Shown in pieces: positions 10,020-58,725 of a DNA stretch of 64,000 nt. The notes below the pieces were generated by a model. The model was not told where the DNA came from, made no database searches, and saw only the letters and a list, made by a program, of their open reading frames with translations. This DNA comes from Numidum massiliense (lineage in GTDB: Bacteria > Bacillota > Bacilli > Thermoactinomycetales > Novibacillaceae): contig NZ_CTDZ01000009.1 in assembly GCF_001375555.1 (NCBI RefSeq), forward strand, positions 558,001 through 622,000, in the 5' to 3' direction. Within the stretch, counting starts at the first letter, position 1. The number at the start of each line of letters is the position of its first letter. The position numbers were made by a program, and so were the translations under genes.

Positions 10020-10909
10020 ATGACACTTTTAGAAACTTTTCTCGATCAACCGGCGTGGCGCATCATCGACCATACCGAGTTCGGCACAAACTTTGCCGCG
10101 CTCGATTCTTTTGCGATCGACGATACGTTGTGCGCAGCCGTCGGCGCCAACGAATCGGAAGCGGTGGCGCGCTTCTGGGTACACGATGCGACCGTCGTGC
10201 TAGGTATACAAGACAGTCGGCTACCATTTGTGTCCGAGGCACTTGCAGAGTTAGAGGGACGTGGTTACCATACGCTCGTCCGCAGTTCGGGGGGGCTCGC
10301 CGTCGTCCTCGACGCCGCCGTGCTTAACGTTTCGCTCATCGCTCCAGCGCCAGACGTGTTCGGGGGCATCGACTTCGGCTATGAAACGATGTGGCAGCTC
10401 GTCCGCGAAATGATTTTGCCGTTCGGAAAGGGCGTGGCGACGGGGGAAATAGTCGGATCGTACTGTCCGGGTCGTTACGACTTGTCGATCGGCGGGCGTA
10501 AGTTCGGCGGCATTTCTCAGCGGCGGACGCGCGGCGGGATGGCCGTGCAGGCATTTTTGCTCGCCGCAGGGTCAGGTGCGGCGTGGCCGTGCAGGCATTT
10601 TTGCTCGCCGCAGGGTCAGGTGCGGCGCGCGCGGCGCTCGTGCGCCACTTTTATGATCGCGCTGACCGGGAACGGACGTCGACCTTCGATTACCCGCGTG
10701 TTCGCCCGGAAACGATGGCCTCCCTCGCTGAATTACTCCAGACGGACATAACGGTCACACAGTTAAAAGGGCGCGCTGCCGACGTCTTACAGCAGCATGC
10801 ACCGCAACTAAGGGCGACGCCACTTTTTGCTGCGGAGGCTGCTCGTGTGGAACGCAACCGCGAACGGATGATGGCGCGCAACGAAAAACTACTGCGCGAA
10901 AGGAATTAA
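10020..10909 (+). pseudogene. lipL: Octanoyl-[GcvH]:protein N-octanoyltransferase, frameshifted by a tandem duplication
   Basis: The product matches B. subtilis LipL, which moves octanoyl or lipoyl groups from GcvH to E2 subunits. Visible blocks are SFAIDDTLCAAVGANESEAV, the active-site region IVGSYCPGRYDLSIGGRKF with the catalytic cysteine, and FGGISQRRTRGGMAVQAFL. A 44-bp segment is exactly duplicated (10540-10627); because 44 is not divisible by three, the first frame goes off and stops at 10751. The original frame resumes at the second copy as GSGAARAALVRHFYDRADRE and runs to 10909. Removing one copy restores an uninterrupted gene. No other lipL is visible in the window. A genuine recent mutation or an assembly error are both possible. 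Confidence 0.88.
10540..10627 (+). repeat. Exact 44-bp tandem duplication
   Basis: Bases 10540-10583 and 10584-10627 are identical, beginning TGGCCGTGCAGG and ending GGTGCGGCG. The duplication lies inside lipL and shifts its frame. Confidence 0.97.
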
Positions 10910-12438: not shown

Positions 12439-12472
12439 TAGTGTACGAGTTTTTCTAGTGTACGAGTTTTTC
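12439..12472. repeat. Exact 17-bp tandem duplication at a stop codon
   Basis: TAGTGTACGAGTTTTTC occurs twice in a row. The junction contains the stop codon of the acyl-CoA ligase gene, so the extra copy only alters the 3' untranslated side. Confidence 0.92.
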
Positions 12473-14044
12473 GTGATCTTTCCACCAAGCGGTGCGTAAG
12501 CGGTACTTCTGGATTTTTCCCGTAGCTGTGCGCGGTAGTTGATCGACGAAGATATACTCTTTTGGCGCTTTGTAATGGGCCAAGTGCGAGCGACAAAATT
12601 GCTTCAGTTCGGCGGCAGTCGCTTTGCTACCCTCTTTCAGCACGATGAACGCGACGGGGGCTTCGCCCCATTTTTCGTCCGGCTTCGAGACGACGCCGAC
12701 GTCGAGGACGTCCGGGTGTTTGAACAAGACACCTTCTACTTCGATCGAAGAAATATTTTCACCGCCGGAAATGATCACATCCTTGGAACGGTCGACAATT
12801 TCGATGTAGCCGTCCGGGTGAATGACCGCAAGATCGCCAGTGTGAAACCAACCGTTGCGGATCGCTTTGGCCGTCTCTTCCGGCTGTTTGTAGTACTCCT
12901 TCATGACGGTGTTGCCCCGGGCGACGATTTCGCCAATTTCTTTCCCGTCCCACGCTACTTCTGTACCGTCGTCGCGCAGTACCGTCGTTTCACCGCTAAA
13001 AATCATCTCCACGCCTTGCCGACTCATCATCGCCGCTTTTTCATCCATCGGCAAGTTTGCAAAGGAATCGCGCCATTCGCAGTAAGAGATGAAAGGCGCC
13101 GCTTCGGTCAACCCGTAAACGTGGATAATAGTCATATTTAAACGCTGTTGCACCTTTTCGATGACGGCCGCTGGCGGCGGGGAACCGGCCGTGGCGATGC
13201 GCGGGTGCGCTTCTAACTCAATGTTGTCGATGTTCGGTGCCTGCAATAACATGCTAAGTACCGTCGGCGCGCCGCAAGCGAGCGTTACTTTTTCTTTTTC
13301 CATCAATGCGAGGACGTCTTTTGGGACAATTTTGCGGAGACAGACGTGGGTTGCCCCGACACCAGAAACGGCCCAAACGCCTCCCCAGCCGTTGACGTGA
13401 AACATCGGGAGTGTGTGTAAATACACATCGTCAACCGAGATGTGTAAGTGAAACAAGAAGTCGGCCGCATTAATATACGTGTTGCGGTGGGTGAGCACGA
13501 CTCCTTTCGGTTTAGACGTCGTGCCACTCGTATAGTTAATCGTGATCGGATCATTTTCGTCAATCGCGACAAAAATAGGATCTGCACTCGACTGAGCGAG
13601 TAGTTGTTCGTAGTCGATCCCTTTCAGCGGCGATTCGTAACCGCTGTCAATTTGGACAACGTGACGGACTTTGGGTAACTGTGGCAAAATCGTGTCAATC
13701 GTCGCTCCCCATTCGGAATCGACGACGATCACCTCGGCGTCGCTGTGATCGATTATGTAGCGCAGTTCCTCTTCTTTAAGACGAATGTTCAGCGGGACGA
13801 GGACGGCTCCTAACTGACAAATACCGTAAAAGCATTCCAACATTTCATGCGTGTTCGGTGCCAATACGGCGACCTTAACGTCCTTTTTTACACCGAGGTC
13901 TTTCAGCCCGTGGGATAGCCGATCGCATCGTTCGGCAAACTCCACATAAGTAAAGCGTTTTTCACCGTCGATGACAGCGAGTTTGTTGTGGTACAGCTTG
14001 ACAGCTCTCCGCTTAAAGTCTAGTGGCGTTAGTGGTGTGATCAT
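12455..14044 (-). CDS. Acyl-CoA synthetase (long/medium-chain fatty acid-CoA ligase family)
   Basis: The 529-residue ANL-superfamily enzyme has the P-loop-like motif NYTSGTTSKPKGVVLTH, the HVYGLTEAAPFISY adenylate motif, then GWFHTGDLAVIHPDGYIEIV and DRSKDVIISGGENISSIEVE, ending with the catalytic lysine context PRTATGKIQKYRLR. It activates a carboxylic acid with ATP and CoA for beta-oxidation or lipid synthesis; chain length cannot be predicted. AAAGGAGAGA lies about ten bases before the ATG at 14044. It is a stand-alone gene with no adjacent fad genes. Confidence 0.92.
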   Translation of the reverse strand: MITPLTPLDFKRRAVKLYHNKLAVIDGEKRFTYVEFAERCDRLSHGLKDLGVKKDVKVAVLAPNTHEMLECFYGICQLGAVLVPLNIRLKEEELRYIIDHSDAEVIVVDSEWGATIDTILPQLPKVRHVVQIDSGYESPLKGIDYEQLLAQSSADPIFVAIDENDPITINYTSGTTSKPKGVVLTHRNTYINAADFLFHLHISVDDVYLHTLPMFHVNGWGGVWAVSGVGATHVCLRKIVPKDVLALMEKEKVTLACGAPTVLSMLLQAPNIDNIELEAHPRIATAGSPPPAAVIEKVQQRLNMTIIHVYGLTEAAPFISYCEWRDSFANLPMDEKAAMMSRQGVEMIFSGETTVLRDDGTEVAWDGKEIGEIVARGNTVMKEYYKQPEETAKAIRNGWFHTGDLAVIHPDGYIEIVDRSKDVIISGGENISSIEVEGVLFKHPDVLDVGVVSKPDEKWGEAPVAFIVLKEGSKATAAELKQFCRSHLAHYKAPKEYIFVDQLPRTATGKIQKYRLRTAWWKDHEKLVH

Positions 14045-30350: not shown

Positions 30351-31619
30351 ATGCGTATTTTACATACGGCGGACTGGCACCTCGGAAAAACGTTGGAAGG
30401 ACGCGACAGGTCGGAAGAGCAGTACCGCGTGATGGCGGAAATTTGCGAGATTGCGGAAGAGGAAGCGGTCGACCTCGTCTTAATTGCCGGCGATGTGTAC
30501 CAAACGGTCAATCCACCGGCGTGGGCGGAAAACTTGTTTTACGAGACGATTCACCGGCTTAGCAACTTTGGTAAGCGCGCAGTCGTCGTCATTTCCGGCA
30601 ATCACGACAACCCGGAGCGCATTCGCGCCGCCAACCCGCTCGCCGACAAGCAAGGGGTTTATTTAGTCGGCTTGCCGAAGGATGAGCTGACACCGTCAAA
30701 ACTACCGCGTCCGCACAGTGTCCAAGCTGTCGCCGCCCGCACGGGGCTGCTTGAACTGGCAGTGCCGACGTGTGCACATCATGCGGTTCTTGCGCTATTA
30801 CCGTACCCGTCGGAAGCGCGACTACAAGAACTGCTGTCGGCGAGTGCCGAGGTGAGCGACATTCGCGCCGCTTATTCGGAGCGGATCGGGCAGTGGTTCG
30901 CCGCGCAGGAGGCATACTTTCGTCCGGACACGGTCAATGTGGCGATGAGTCACTTGTTTGTGCACGGGGGACAGGAATCCGATTCGGAGCGGCAAATTCA
31001 ACTCGGCGGCGCGTATGCGGTCGAAGCGGACAAGCTACCTCGCACCGCGCACTATGTCGCGCTCGGCCACTTACACCGCCCGCAAAAAGTGGCAGCGGCC
31101 TTAGCGCCGACGCGTTACGCCGGATCGCCGCTCGCCTACAGTTTTTCCGAGGCAGGACAAGAGAAGTCGGTCGTGCTCATTGAAGCCGAACCGGGCAAGT
31201 CTGCGACGACGCGCCTCATACGACTCACTTCTGGCCGGCCGCTCATGCGCTGGGAGGTCACAGGCGGCTTGACCCAATTAGACACGTGGTGTAGTGAGGG
31301 GAAAGATGCCGAGGCGTGGATCGATTTGGAACTACACGTGCCGCACCCGCTCTCGCAAGAAGACATTCGCCGCGTGCGCAAAATGCACCGCGGTTTTGTG
31401 CACATTCGCCCCGTTTTTCCCGAGGGCGAGGCGGAAACAGAGCATGTCCGTACGCCAGAGGCAAAGCGTCCGGAGGCGCTGTTCCGGCGCTTTTACAATG
31501 AACGCACGGGGGGCGAGCCGCGCGAAGCGGTGGTAGATCTGTTTTTGGAGCTGTTGCACGAGGAAGCGGACGTCGATGGGACAGATAGTAGGAAGGAAGT
31601 CGCCGATGAAGCCTCTTAA
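30351..31619 (+). CDS. sbcD: Exonuclease SbcCD subunit D
   Basis: The 422-residue Mre11-type nuclease subunit has all metallophosphoesterase motifs: HTADWHLGKTLEGRDRSEEQ at residues 4-23, LIAGDVYQ near 45, VVISGNHDNPERI near 80, the MSHLFVHGG block near 200, and VALGHLHRPQ near 238. With SbcC it cleaves hairpins and trims DNA ends. AAGGAGGTCTGTACG precedes the ATG. It overlaps sbcC by 14 bases. Confidence 0.95.
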   Translation: MRILHTADWHLGKTLEGRDRSEEQYRVMAEICEIAEEEAVDLVLIAGDVYQTVNPPAWAENLFYETIHRLSNFGKRAVVVISGNHDNPERIRAANPLADKQGVYLVGLPKDELTPSKLPRPHSVQAVAARTGLLELAVPTCAHHAVLALLPYPSEARLQELLSASAEVSDIRAAYSERIGQWFAAQEAYFRPDTVNVAMSHLFVHGGQESDSERQIQLGGAYAVEADKLPRTAHYVALGHLHRPQKVAAALAPTRYAGSPLAYSFSEAGQEKSVVLIEAEPGKSATTRLIRLTSGRPLMRWEVTGGLTQLDTWCSEGKDAEAWIDLELHVPHPLSQEDIRRVRKMHRGFVHIRPVFPEGEAETEHVRTPEAKRPEALFRRFYNERTGGEPREAVVDLFLELLHEEADVDGTDSRKEVADEAS

Positions 31620-34600
31620 GTTGACGATCGCCGGGTTGCACAGTTTTCGCCGCGAGCAGACGATCGACTTTACGCGGGTGACCGATGCGGGCATCTTCGG
31701 CATTTTTGGACCGACGGGGAGCGGCAAGTCGTCGATTCTCGACGCGATCACGCTAGCACTATACGGGCGTGTCGAGCGCAGCGGCGGAAACCGCTACGGT
31801 ATCCTTAACCAACACGAGCTACAGTTGCACGTGGCGTTAACCTTTCAAATTAGTAGCAGCAGCGGTAAAAACGTGTACCGCGTCGAGCGGACATATAAGC
31901 GCAAGGACGGACACAGTGTGCAGTCGTCGCACGCGCGGCTCATCGCCTGTACGCCGGAAGGAGACAAGGTGCTCGAAGATCGAGAAACGGCGGTAAATAA
32001 CGGCATTTTACGCATTCTCGGTTTGAGCGTCGACGACTTTACGCGCGCTGTCGTTTTGCCGCAAGGGAAGTTTGAAGAGTTTTTGAAGCTGAAAGGCAAA
32101 GAGCGCCGCGACATGTTAGAGCGCATTTTCCGCCTCGACGCGTACGGCGAGGCGCTGAGGAAACGTTTGCTCACTCGCTTGCAATCGTTGGAAAGTGAAG
32201 TGAACCGTTTGGAGAGCCAGCAGGAATTGCTCGGCGAGGCGACGAGCGAGGCGGTTAAGGAAGCTGCAAGACAACTTGAAGTGGCGCAAGGTAAGTTAGC
32301 CGAAGCGACGCGAAACCGCGACGCGTTTGGGCACGAATTCGAACAGTGGCAAAAAGTTCGCGGGCATATGCGAGAATTGCGTGACGTCGCGCGTCGCGAG
32401 GAAGAGCTTGACGCGCGGCAAGGGGAGATGCAAGTGCTCGAAGCTGCGCTGCAAACGGCGGCGCGCGCTGAACGCGTCTCGCTGTACGCCGCGACGTACC
32501 GCGAGAGGGAGCAGCAGCTACAAGTGACAAAAGCGGCGCTACAGGAGGTACAACAAGCGATCACAGCGGCCGCAGAGGAACGGGAACAGGCACAAGCTGC
32601 ACATCGTGCGGCTGAAGAAGCGTGGGAACGAGAAGCGCCGCATCTTTCGGAACGGAAAGTGAAGCTCGAAGAAGCGTTAGAACGGGAAAAAGAGCGCGCG
32701 GCGCTCGACCGGGAGGAACAGGATCGTGCCGAGCGACTACAGCGCGTGACAGACGGCTGGCAGCGTGCGAAAACGCAAGTTGAAACGGCGCAACAGGAAT
32801 TGGCCGTGCTGCGTACCCGCGCAGCAGAGCTGCAGCAACGGGCGGCAGAGCTGCGCGTGACGACCGACGAACGCCGCCGCCTGCGAGTGGCGGAAGCGGC
32901 GAAGGCCGACGTCGAAGCGGCGGAAAAACAATTGACTGACGCGGAAAAAGAGGCTACCGCGCAAGTAGCGCACTGGCGCGTGGCGGAAGCGGCGAAGGCC
33001 GACGTCGAAGCGGCGGAAAAACAATTGACTGACGCGGAAAAAGAGGCTACCGCGCAAGTAGCGCACTGGCGCACGCAGACAGATGCGCGAGCGGCCGCCG
33101 TCGCAGCGGAGGAGGCGAAAGCGCGCGAATGGCAAACGTTGCGTGAAGCTGTCGAAGGGCTTAAAGGACAGGCTCCGACAACCGGAGAAAAGTTGCAACA
33201 GCGTGAGCGCGAGCTGCACGATTACGCCTACCGCGTGGAGCGACTCGCTCAGCTAGAAGCGGATCGGCAAAAGGCACGTCGAGATGTAGCAGCGCTCGCG
33301 AAGCAGCTGGACGACGTACGCGTGCGGCGGGAACAGCTAGACGAACAGCGCCAGCAGTGCGCCGCGAAACTTACTGCAGCGGAAACGCACCTCCAAGAGC
33401 TAGAAAAGGCACAGCGAGCCCGCATGGAGCAGCATATGGCGGCACAACTTGCGGCAAGTTTGGAGGCAGGTTCCGCTTGTCCCGTGTGCGGGGCAACCGA
33501 CCACCCGCATCTAGCGGCGACCGGGGCGCACGCGGCGGAGCAGGCAGACGAGGGGCGTGTGCACGACGAACAGCTCCAGCGCGCCAACGAAGCGGTCGCC
33601 ACGCTTAGGCAACAGTTGCATCAACGACAGACGGACTGCTCAGTGCTCGCGGAAACGTACACCCATCGCAAGGCACAGCGCGAAGGGGCAGAACAGATAC
33701 TCGCCGAACGACATACGAAAATAGTGGAACAGCAGCAGGCGCTGCCGCGACGGCTGCAGGGGGCGACTGTGCCTGAGACGGAGGAACACCTCCGTAGGGA
33801 ACAAGATAACCTTCAGGAAGAGCGCCGTAAGCTCGCAATTTGGGAACGAGACGTCGCCGCGAAAGAAGAACAGTTACACGCGTACCAGCTCGCGTATCAC
33901 CGTCTGCGGGAACAGACGGCGACCGCGGAGGCGAACGCGCAACACGCCGCTGAACGGGCACAAACGGCGGAAGCAGCTGTCGCCAAGTGGCGGGAACGCG
34001 TCGCCACAACGAGGGCAAAATGGGAAGAGGTGCGCGGCGAGTGGACGTTTGCTGGGCTCGCCGAACGGCTACGCGAAGTCGAAACTTTCGACCGGGAACG
34101 GGAAACGGTTGAAGCGGCTCGCGAAACACTCACTGGCGAGCAGGAAGCGACGGAACAGCGGTTAGACGACGGGCGGCGAGAAGAGGATAAGTGGCGCGCA
34201 GCGACACACGACGCGGAGCAACAGCTGCGGAAGGTACGGGAGCGGCGGGAAGGCCTGACGACGGCGATCGACGCGATAACCGGCGGTCAGCCAGCCGCAC
34301 AATTGCTCGCCGAACTCGTAGCTCGTTCCGATGAGTTGCGACAGCAGCTGGCCCGTACGGAAGAAGTCTTGCGGACAGCGGAACAAACGTGGCAAGAAGC
34401 GAGTCGCCAGCTGTCCGCCCTAGAGGCAAAAGCAGAAGATCACGCGGCACAGTTACAGCTGGCGGAGCAGCAGCTTAACGACAAACTCGCGACTTACCAG
34501 TTTGCGAGTGTAGCGGAAGTGGAAGCGGGGACCCTCCAACTGGAGGAGCGCGAACGTCTATCCGCTACGTTGACCGAGTTTCGCGAGGCGCAAATAAAAG

Positions 34601-35325
34601 TGGCTAGCGATCGGCAACGATTGCAAGAGCTCCTCGCCGGACGCACCTTGACTGAGGAAGCGTGGCAAGAGATGACTGCCAAGCGCGAGGCGCTCGCCGA
34701 GGTGTGGCAAGCGGCACAAAAAGCAGCCATTAGCGCCGAACACGCGCATCGGGAGACGGAGCAAAATCACGGCAAGTGGAAAGTACTTGAAGCGGAGCGC
34801 CGGAAATGGCAGCGGCAGCTCGACGATGCGCACGACTTACAGCAAGTGTTGAAAGGGAAGGCGTTCGTCGAATTTGTCGCTCGCGAACACTTGGAAGGGA
34901 TCGCCGCCGACGCCTCGCGCCATTTGGGGAAATTGACGCGCTACCGCTATGCGCTCGAAATCGCGCAAGATGGCAACTTTGTCATGCGCGACGACGGTAA
35001 CGGCGGGATGCGGCGGCCGGTGAGCACGTTGTCGGGAGGAGAAACGTTTTTGACATCACTCGCTCTCGCCCTCGCCTTGTCGTCGCAAATTCAGCTGAAG
35101 GGCGAATGCCCGCTCGAGTTTTTCTTTCTTGACGAAGGGTTTGGCACACTTGATCCCGAGTTGCTCGACGTCGTCATTACGGCGTTGGAAAAACTGCACT
35201 ACGAACATATGACGATTGGCCTCATTAGCCACGTCCCAGAACTGCAAAACCGCCTACACCGCAAAATTCGCGTCCTACCGGCGACGGTAGATGAAGGAAC
35301 GACCGTACGCATCGAGTACTCATAA
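31606..35325 (+). CDS. sbcC: Exonuclease SbcCD subunit C (SMC-like ATPase)
   Basis: The 1,239-residue Rad50-type protein has Walker A FGPTGSGKSSILDAI near residue 35, long coiled coils, a zinc hook CPVCGATDHPH near residues 625-635, signature STLSGGETFLTSLALALALS near 1140, and Walker B FFFLDEGFGTLDPE near 1172. ATG 31606 is preferred over 31576; it follows AGGAAGGAAG and gives the usual MKPLKLTIAGLHSFR start. An exact 93-bp (31-residue) tandem duplication lies in the first coiled coil (32887-33072). It keeps the frame but changes the coiled-coil length on one arm. Confidence 0.95.
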   Translation: MKPLKLTIAGLHSFRREQTIDFTRVTDAGIFGIFGPTGSGKSSILDAITLALYGRVERSGGNRYGILNQHELQLHVALTFQISSSSGKNVYRVERTYKRKDGHSVQSSHARLIACTPEGDKVLEDRETAVNNGILRILGLSVDDFTRAVVLPQGKFEEFLKLKGKERRDMLERIFRLDAYGEALRKRLLTRLQSLESEVNRLESQQELLGEATSEAVKEAARQLEVAQGKLAEATRNRDAFGHEFEQWQKVRGHMRELRDVARREEELDARQGEMQVLEAALQTAARAERVSLYAATYREREQQLQVTKAALQEVQQAITAAAEEREQAQAAHRAAEEAWEREAPHLSERKVKLEEALEREKERAALDREEQDRAERLQRVTDGWQRAKTQVETAQQELAVLRTRAAELQQRAAELRVTTDERRRLRVAEAAKADVEAAEKQLTDAEKEATAQVAHWRVAEAAKADVEAAEKQLTDAEKEATAQVAHWRTQTDARAAAVAAEEAKAREWQTLREAVEGLKGQAPTTGEKLQQRERELHDYAYRVERLAQLEADRQKARRDVAALAKQLDDVRVRREQLDEQRQQCAAKLTAAETHLQELEKAQRARMEQHMAAQLAASLEAGSACPVCGATDHPHLAATGAHAAEQADEGRVHDEQLQRANEAVATLRQQLHQRQTDCSVLAETYTHRKAQREGAEQILAERHTKIVEQQQALPRRLQGATVPETEEHLRREQDNLQEERRKLAIWERDVAAKEEQLHAYQLAYHRLREQTATAEANAQHAAERAQTAEAAVAKWRERVATTRAKWEEVRGEWTFAGLAERLREVETFDRERETVEAARETLTGEQEATEQRLDDGRREEDKWRAATHDAEQQLRKVRERREGLTTAIDAITGGQPAAQLLAELVARSDELRQQLARTEEVLRTAEQTWQEASRQLSALEAKAEDHAAQLQLAEQQLNDKLATYQFASVAEVEAGTLQLEERERLSATLTEFREAQIKVASDRQRLQELLAGRTLTEEAWQEMTAKREALAEVWQAAQKAAISAEHAHRETEQNHGKWKVLEAERRKWQRQLDDAHDLQQVLKGKAFVEFVAREHLEGIAADASRHLGKLTRYRYALEIAQDGNFVMRDDGNGGMRRPVSTLSGGETFLTSLALALALSSQIQLKGECPLEFFFLDEGFGTLDPELLDVVITALEKLHYEHMTIGLISHVPELQNRLHRKIRVLPATVDEGTTVRIEYS
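32887..33072 (+). repeat. Exact 93-bp tandem duplication in sbcC
   Basis: Bases 32887-32979 and 32980-33072 appear identical and encode two copies of VAEAAKADVEAAEKQLTDAE and onward to HWR. The 31-residue unit is not a whole number of heptads (4.4), so the coiled-coil register shifts across it. Confidence 0.95.
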
Positions 35326-57240: not shown

Positions 57241-58686
57241 GTGAGGCGTTACAAGAAAATCATGTATTTGCTGTTCGTGGCGGTCCTTTCGGTGGCGCTC
57301 CTGGCCGGGTGTAACAGTGGCACGTCTTCGGGTGACAAGGAGGATAATGGCAATTCTGGGAAGACCGAGGAACCGGCGGCTAAGGGCGACGAGAAGAAAA
57401 AAGATGTCGTTAAAGTGTGGACATTTCCCGTAGAGGCGGAATACAACGACAACTTTGCCAGGATTAAAGAGGCTTTCGAAGAGGCGAACCCGCATATTAC
57501 GATTGAAAAAGAAGAGCTCTCCTGGGCAGAGGGGATAAAGAAGTTTGACACGGCGATCAACGCAGGTAATCCGCCGGACATTATGTTCGTTACGCCCTCG
57601 GCCAAATACGCACAGACAGGTTTAATGGTACCGGTTGAAGACTACGCCGATGCGAGTGCTTTGGAAGACTTTGATGCGAACGCACTCGAATACATGAAAA
57701 TCGACAATAAACTGTACGGTTTACCGCTGTACATGAAGTTGCATACGATTGCCGGTAACCCGAAATTGATGGATGAAATCGGGCTCGACTGGAAGAAGAT
57801 CCAACGAGAAGGTTGGACGTGGGACGAGTTTAAAAAGGCGATCAAGAAGGGAACGAAGAAAAACGCGGACGGCAAGCAACAGTACGCGTTCGTCTTTCAC
57901 GGAGCCGAGACAGATCCGACTGAACTGCTCGATCATATGAACTTGAACAACGGTCTTATTTCCGCTATTGACAAAGACGGTAAGTATCAGTACACGAGCC
58001 CGAAGTTTTTGGAAACGCTTAAGTTTATCCGCTCGCTTATAGACGAGGATTTAATGCCGAAAGAGTCGAACCAGATTACGCCGACGAAGCGCATGGAGTA
58101 CTTCTACTCCGAGCAGGCGATGATTATCGGGAAGGCGATGCCGTACTACGAAGTCGTCATCGGCAATCACAATCAAGACGTGAAAGATAAAAAAGCGTCC
58201 GCTGGTCAGAAAGAAGTCGATTTTGTCCTTTTACCCGAACCGCATCACAAAGATGCGGAAGCGGTGACACCGGGTGGCGTCGACGGCTACGCGATGTTTA
58301 AGCAGAAAAATTATAAAGGGAACGTCGATCAAGACACGCATTTGAAAAACGTCGCTAACGTTCTCGTCGCTTTGACGTCGAAAGAGGCTGGCGCGTCTGC
58401 GGTCGTGTTACGATTGCCGCAGGTGACGAAGTCAGGGGACGAAATGTGGAAAGACAAGTATGAAATGAAGCCGGAAAACAAAGAAATGTTGGATCGACTA
58501 TTTGAAAAAGTCGTGCCGCCGGTGCAAGTTGATCCGGAGTTGTCGCAAAAAGCGATCAAGCTTTACGACGAAGTCATTAAAGCGAAATACCCGGCCTTAC
58601 TCGGTGGGGATGTCACGGCCGAAGATATGCACAAAGCGATTGTAGAGCGGGCCGAGAAAGACTTTGGCGACAACATCGTGAAGTGA
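57241..58686 (+). CDS. Carbohydrate ABC transporter substrate-binding lipoprotein
   Basis: The 481-residue lipoprotein has the signal KKIMYLLFVAVLSVALLAGC with its lipobox cysteine near residue 22 and a Ser/Gly/Asp-rich linker. The family-1 solute-binding fold of sugar-specific proteins follows (VWTFPVEAEYNDNFARIKEA, GNPPDIMFVTPSAKYAQTGL, GWTWDEFKKAIKKGTKKN, EQAMIIGKAMPYYEVVIGN). GTG 57241 follows GGGAGGAAGTAAA; the open frame extends to 57151, across a cre box, without a ribosome site. It is the first gene of a four-gene sugar importer. Confidence 0.92.
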   Translation: MRRYKKIMYLLFVAVLSVALLAGCNSGTSSGDKEDNGNSGKTEEPAAKGDEKKKDVVKVWTFPVEAEYNDNFARIKEAFEEANPHITIEKEELSWAEGIKKFDTAINAGNPPDIMFVTPSAKYAQTGLMVPVEDYADASALEDFDANALEYMKIDNKLYGLPLYMKLHTIAGNPKLMDEIGLDWKKIQREGWTWDEFKKAIKKGTKKNADGKQQYAFVFHGAETDPTELLDHMNLNNGLISAIDKDGKYQYTSPKFLETLKFIRSLIDEDLMPKESNQITPTKRMEYFYSEQAMIIGKAMPYYEVVIGNHNQDVKDKKASAGQKEVDFVLLPEPHHKDAEAVTPGGVDGYAMFKQKNYKGNVDQDTHLKNVANVLVALTSKEAGASAVVLRLPQVTKSGDEMWKDKYEMKPENKEMLDRLFEKVVPPVQVDPELSQKAIKLYDEVIKAKYPALLGGDVTAEDMHKAIVERAEKDFGDNIVK

Positions 58687-58725
58687 CAGTCTGTGACAGT
58701 CTGTGACAGTCTGTGCCAGTCTGTG
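58685..58725 (+). repeat. Short 10-bp tandem repeat (four copies)
   Basis: GACAGTCTGT occurs three times in a row, with a fourth copy bearing one change (GCCAGTCTGT). It begins at the stop codon of the binding-protein gene. Confidence 0.9.

Follow-up and report, generated by a model that had tools for sequence, protein, structure and literature searches.

The LipL-like gene at 10020-10909 of the window (64,000 nucleotides of contig C9, in the 3.76-Mb, nine-contig genome of Numidum massiliense) is, in the deposited sequence, broken in frame inside an exact 44-bp tandem doubling. The leading explanation, and a reasonably probable one, is that the doubling arose in assembly, because the array belongs to a class of four long, blunt arrays at peaks of G+C, one member of which splits accB. 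The living strain would then have one copy and a presumably intact LipL that moves lipoyl groups from GcvH to the E2 proteins.

The 44-bp doubling and the split lipL frame

The two units, at 10540..10583 and 10584..10627 on the plus strand, abut and are 100% alike, as the original prediction had described, and chance is far from able to produce an exact abutting repeat of this length. The array (10540-10627) is exactly 88 bp long; neither flanking base continues the repeat and there is no partial third copy. Forty-four being no multiple of three, the frame shifts within lipL, and in place of one continuous frame of about 280 codons there are a 243-aa ORF (10020..10751, plus strand) and, in another frame, a 108-aa ORF with a GTG start (10583..10909, plus strand). 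The first ~188 residues of the 243-aa ORF are LipL-like, with the conserved GSYCPG included, and the remaining ~55 are a frameshifted tail. The pieces overlap by about the unit length, which places the loss of frame within the array, while to either side of it the gene stays open, so that the expectation of a gene otherwise intact was borne out. A hairpin at the array was considered and rejected, the fold of 10490-10680 being unexceptional (z -1.24). Elsewhere in the window an exact 17-bp doubling (12439-12472) lies across the 3′ end of an ORF on the minus strand (12455-14044) that is labeled acyl-CoA synthetase-like from its sequence rather than from a database search, and a 10-bp unit is repeated 4.3 times, 96% alike, at 58683-58725.

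That the gene is LipL-like, and frameshifted in the deposited sequence, was confirmed by the matches of its two ORFs to NF053589, an octanoyl/lipoyl-[GcvH]:protein transferase model. The first is matched at positions 4-185 of 276 (E 1.6e-79, 267.3 bits) and the second at 172-275 (E 9.4e-27, 94.2 bits), both under the curated whole-protein cut-off of 400 bits because each is half of the protein. NF047857, another model of this transferase, similarly covers 2-185 in the first piece and 174-276 in the second. PF21948 matches the first piece (E 8e-31), and a Pfam search with the second gave no match. By profile and by alignment with Bacillota relatives this is the family of the Bacillus subtilis and Staphylococcus aureus LipL proteins, with the difference that here the frame of the assembly is broken and that searches of the genome yielded neither lipA nor a LipM. 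The relatives come from a sample of 60 genomes, none of the same genus; 16 were entered in the alignment, 14 of them with a usable protein. Taken together the two pieces account for the whole length of LipL, and the duplicated residues are all that they have in common. All 14 relatives have lipL unsplit and the 44-bp stretch single, and all 14, like the window piece, keep the GSYCPG cysteine, which we take to be catalytic.

The relatives bear on two readings in which the broken arrangement would be functional. One is that LipL is made as two cooperating proteins. A precedent exists in archaea, where a lipoate ligase can consist of two parts (LplA with LplB), and both pieces are open, the second from its GTG. 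The pieces repeat the same residues, however, the first ends in the frameshifted tail, and lipL is split in 0 of the 14 relatives, so that this reading is scarcely credible. The other, put forward in the original prediction, is a reversible on/off switch, in which slippage would remove one copy, LipL would be regained and lipoylation would vary within the population. The repeat is both perfect and frameshifting, and so its copy number does alter the lipL frame. A parallel is described in passages of PMC3681913 on gudB-CR of B. subtilis 168, a cryptic metabolic gene that is kept silent by a short, perfect tandem repeat and that loss of a copy would reactivate; there the unit is 9 bp and in frame, and its precise loss has been observed at ~1e-4, whereas the lipL unit is 44 bp, shifts the frame and is of doubtful existence in the cell. 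The single copy in 14 of 14 relatives argues against a conserved switch, though such conservation is not strictly required of a recent one. With the doubts over the existence of the array applying equally here, and no positive evidence in this genome, an evolved switch is very improbable.

Tandem arrays across the genome

Exact arrays with units of at least 12 bp were surveyed in 1,658,356 bases of this genome (the window and 80 stretches, ~44%) and in 800,000 bases of G001, the sole relative of the same family in the comparison. They number 68 here (41 per Mb) against 5 in G001 (6.2 per Mb; p 2.4e-7). With diverged arrays included, Tandem Repeats Finder gave 195 per Mb for this genome, a total of 324 arrays of all degrees of divergence in the sample, against 54 per Mb for G001. 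A first subset of 0.86 Mb had given 218 per Mb for this genome and 40 for G001, and 27 loci with LipL from other Bacillota gave 111, so that the contrast derives partly from G001 being poor in repeats. As for loss of a repair gene as the cause of the richness, the two looked for, MutS (a 905-aa open frame) and a 5′-3′ exonuclease domain protein (an 883-aa open frame, PolA by size), are both present.

Assembly error behind all of the arrays was also rejected. Exact units of 12-29 bp are divisible by three in 18 of 25 cases inside ORFs against 9 of 28 between them (Fisher p 0.006; ORFs called mechanically rather than by a gene finder, and 8 arrays straddling an ORF end excluded). Among diverged arrays with units of at least 30 bp inside ORFs the proportion is 15 of 16, with the SbcC array excluded, and every degree of divergence is present. 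The short arrays are apparently for the most part real sequence.

Long blunt arrays at G+C peaks

Exact arrays with units of at least 30 bp number seven in the sample. In three of them, with units of 78, 66 and 45 bp, there are 9-92 extra bases. The other four consist of two copies exactly, with 0-2 bases more; their units are 44, 93, 94 and 96 bp, and all lie inside ORFs. Two shift the frame (lipL and accB) and two are multiples of three (sbcC and brnQ), as if the reading frame did not matter, in contrast to the diverged long arrays inside ORFs, of which 15 of 16 keep it. The sbcC member, a 93-bp unit twice over with 0 extra bases, is at 32887..33072 of the window (plus strand), at a G+C peak inside an SbcC-like ORF (31576-35325) that scores under the curated SbcC cut-offs. 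The brnQ member is a 96-bp doubling at C9:902038-902229 (L093:2038-2229) inside a branched-chain amino acid carrier that is over the TIGR00796 cut-off, so that 32 residues are repeated within the permease.

In 200-bp windows with one copy counted, the local G+C percentiles are 99.82 for lipL, 97.96 for accB, 99.97 for sbcC and 99.07 for brnQ. All four are thus in the top ~2%, with a combined p of 2.5e-7 that is to be read with the class having been defined after inspection of the data. For the short exact arrays the median percentile is 26, and just 1 of 61 reaches 97.9. G001 has zero arrays of the blunt class in 0.8 Mb, against an expectation of ~1.9 if its rate were equal, and so is a weak control.

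The member that weighs most on whether such a doubling is real is that in accB, where an exact doubling of 94 bp (C9:1099006-1099195; L095:19006-19195, with the pieces in L068) splits the gene into two frames. Against TIGR00531 the N-terminal piece covers 2-69 and the C-terminal piece 43-155, and each was also compared with the AccB of G001; accC, over its own cut-off, is downstream. A search for biotin/lipoyl domains found eight places in the genome, of which the split accB is the sole accB detected. Others are an 80-aa carrier that passes NF006079 and one GcvH match, and the remaining five are in frames of 444 to 1161 aa, which to judge by size may encode pyruvate carboxylase and E2 proteins. 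In G001 AccB is whole, at 168 aa, and there is a second carrier of 162 aa. In B. subtilis all subunits of acetyl-CoA carboxylase (ACCase) are essential, according to a portion of PMC5437119. A clonal culture with a split accB should not grow, unless the C-terminal piece suffices or another carrier substitutes, and the accB doubling is probably an assembly error of the same kind as the lipL array. The three sister arrays at G+C peaks, one of them splitting accB, leave without support both the claim that the living strain carries the lesion and that of an on/off switch.

Uncollapsed contig-end overlaps in draft assemblies are a kind of error that gives false tandem duplications. The likeness here is in the two copies with no partial third, the position at G+C peaks and the indifference to frame and to gene importance, the same array shape recurring at such peaks regardless of gene function; the difference is that the error is here inferred from sequence. 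On the simplest account short-read coverage, which is prone to drop at G+C peaks, would have failed here, and two contig ends overlapping by 44 bases were probably set side by side with the overlap uncollapsed. The literature found on false duplications consists of general assembly papers and one account of reference errors, none on the uncollapsed-overlap error exactly; parts of PMC5393005 advise caution where reference or draft genomes are repetitive or rich in G+C.

Against an artefact stands the frequency of true tandem duplication in this genome. A diverged 69-bp array (C9_990001, 89% alike) is also at a top G+C peak, showing that such peaks undergo true duplications, and the post hoc recognition of the class and the weakness of the G001 control count on the same side. 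The lipL unit, at 44 bp, is half as long as those of the sister arrays; if it may be conjectured that the word length of the assembler limits such overlaps, units of 93-96 bp would agree with this, and 44 bp fits poorly. It is conceivable that the second accB piece yields a truncated AccB that works, and no observation directly contradicts the doubled sequence. A further reading is that tandem duplication is unusually active in this lineage and produces blunt doublings at G+C peaks so often that the cultures are mixed, with knockouts of lipL and even of accB persisting beside one-copy cells and revertants; the lipL allele would then be one state of a variation in lipoylation within a lipoate auxotroph. 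Such a population is very improbable.

Lipoylation genes and a possible true lipL lesion

The main rival to an assembly artefact is that lipL of the sequenced strain was put out of action by a real and recent tandem duplication. A relic of de novo lipoylation would be decaying after the loss of lipA and lipM, while an LplJ-like ligase attaches scavenged lipoate directly. We regard it as unlikely on balance, with a chance that is nevertheless far from negligible. Searched as DNA, 10000-11200 matches the genome in one place only. PF21948 matches two proteins of the genome: the split LipL and, at C9:9661, an LplJ-like ligase in an open frame of 359 aa, of which a stretch of 196 aa is enough to pass the lipoate--protein ligase cut-off. 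Thus, of the second lipL or lplJ that the original prediction had named, a second LipL was not found by the PF21948 search and an LplJ-like ligase was. That search also found no protein of the LipM type. No lipA is above its cut-off, the best score being 28.7 bits against 310. G001, by comparison, has a lipA above the cut-off (404 bits) and three PF21948 proteins: one that is LplJ-like, one that has the size of a LipM (286 aa), and LipL.

A lipA above the cut-off is present in 53 of 61 genomes, and the 8 without, this one among them, include one that is only 67% complete and another that is 84% complete. Twelve genomes have a strong match to LipL (E 1e-29 or better), and among these the present one alone is without lipA. 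Three of the lipA-less genomes (G049, G051 and G053) have a single PF21948 protein each, LplJ-like in score and in size, and so life without LipL is possible. For GcvH there is a match at C9:3500543, over 42 aa of a frame of 130 aa. To judge from this gene content, the organism is likely a lipoate auxotroph or scavenger, using either a relay from LplJ through GcvH to LipL or LplJ alone. The richness of the genome in exact arrays, real ones included, is also consistent with a true duplication in lipL.

Several observations weigh on the other side. The lesion belongs to the odd class of blunt, G+C-rich and frame-indifferent arrays that includes accB, and the remainder of LipL is well preserved, with GSYCPG intact. 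As related in sections of PMC5049849, S. aureus lipL mutants do not grow in defined medium, with or without lipoate; they do grow once branched-chain fatty acids are supplied in the medium, and their E2-PDH and E2-BCODH are no longer lipoylated, and so a true loss of lipL could be costly. An artefact of assembly keeps its place as the leading explanation of the lipL doubling.

When a draft genome shows an exact short tandem duplication, a pseudogene or a phase-variable switch is to be called only with caution, and sister arrays in essential genes, together with local G+C, provide a cheap test of such duplications. Should the lesion prove to be true, the lipoyl-relay step would have been knocked out recently in a bacterium for which neither LipA nor LipM was found, and one could ask there whether LplJ by itself is able to supply pyruvate dehydrogenase.
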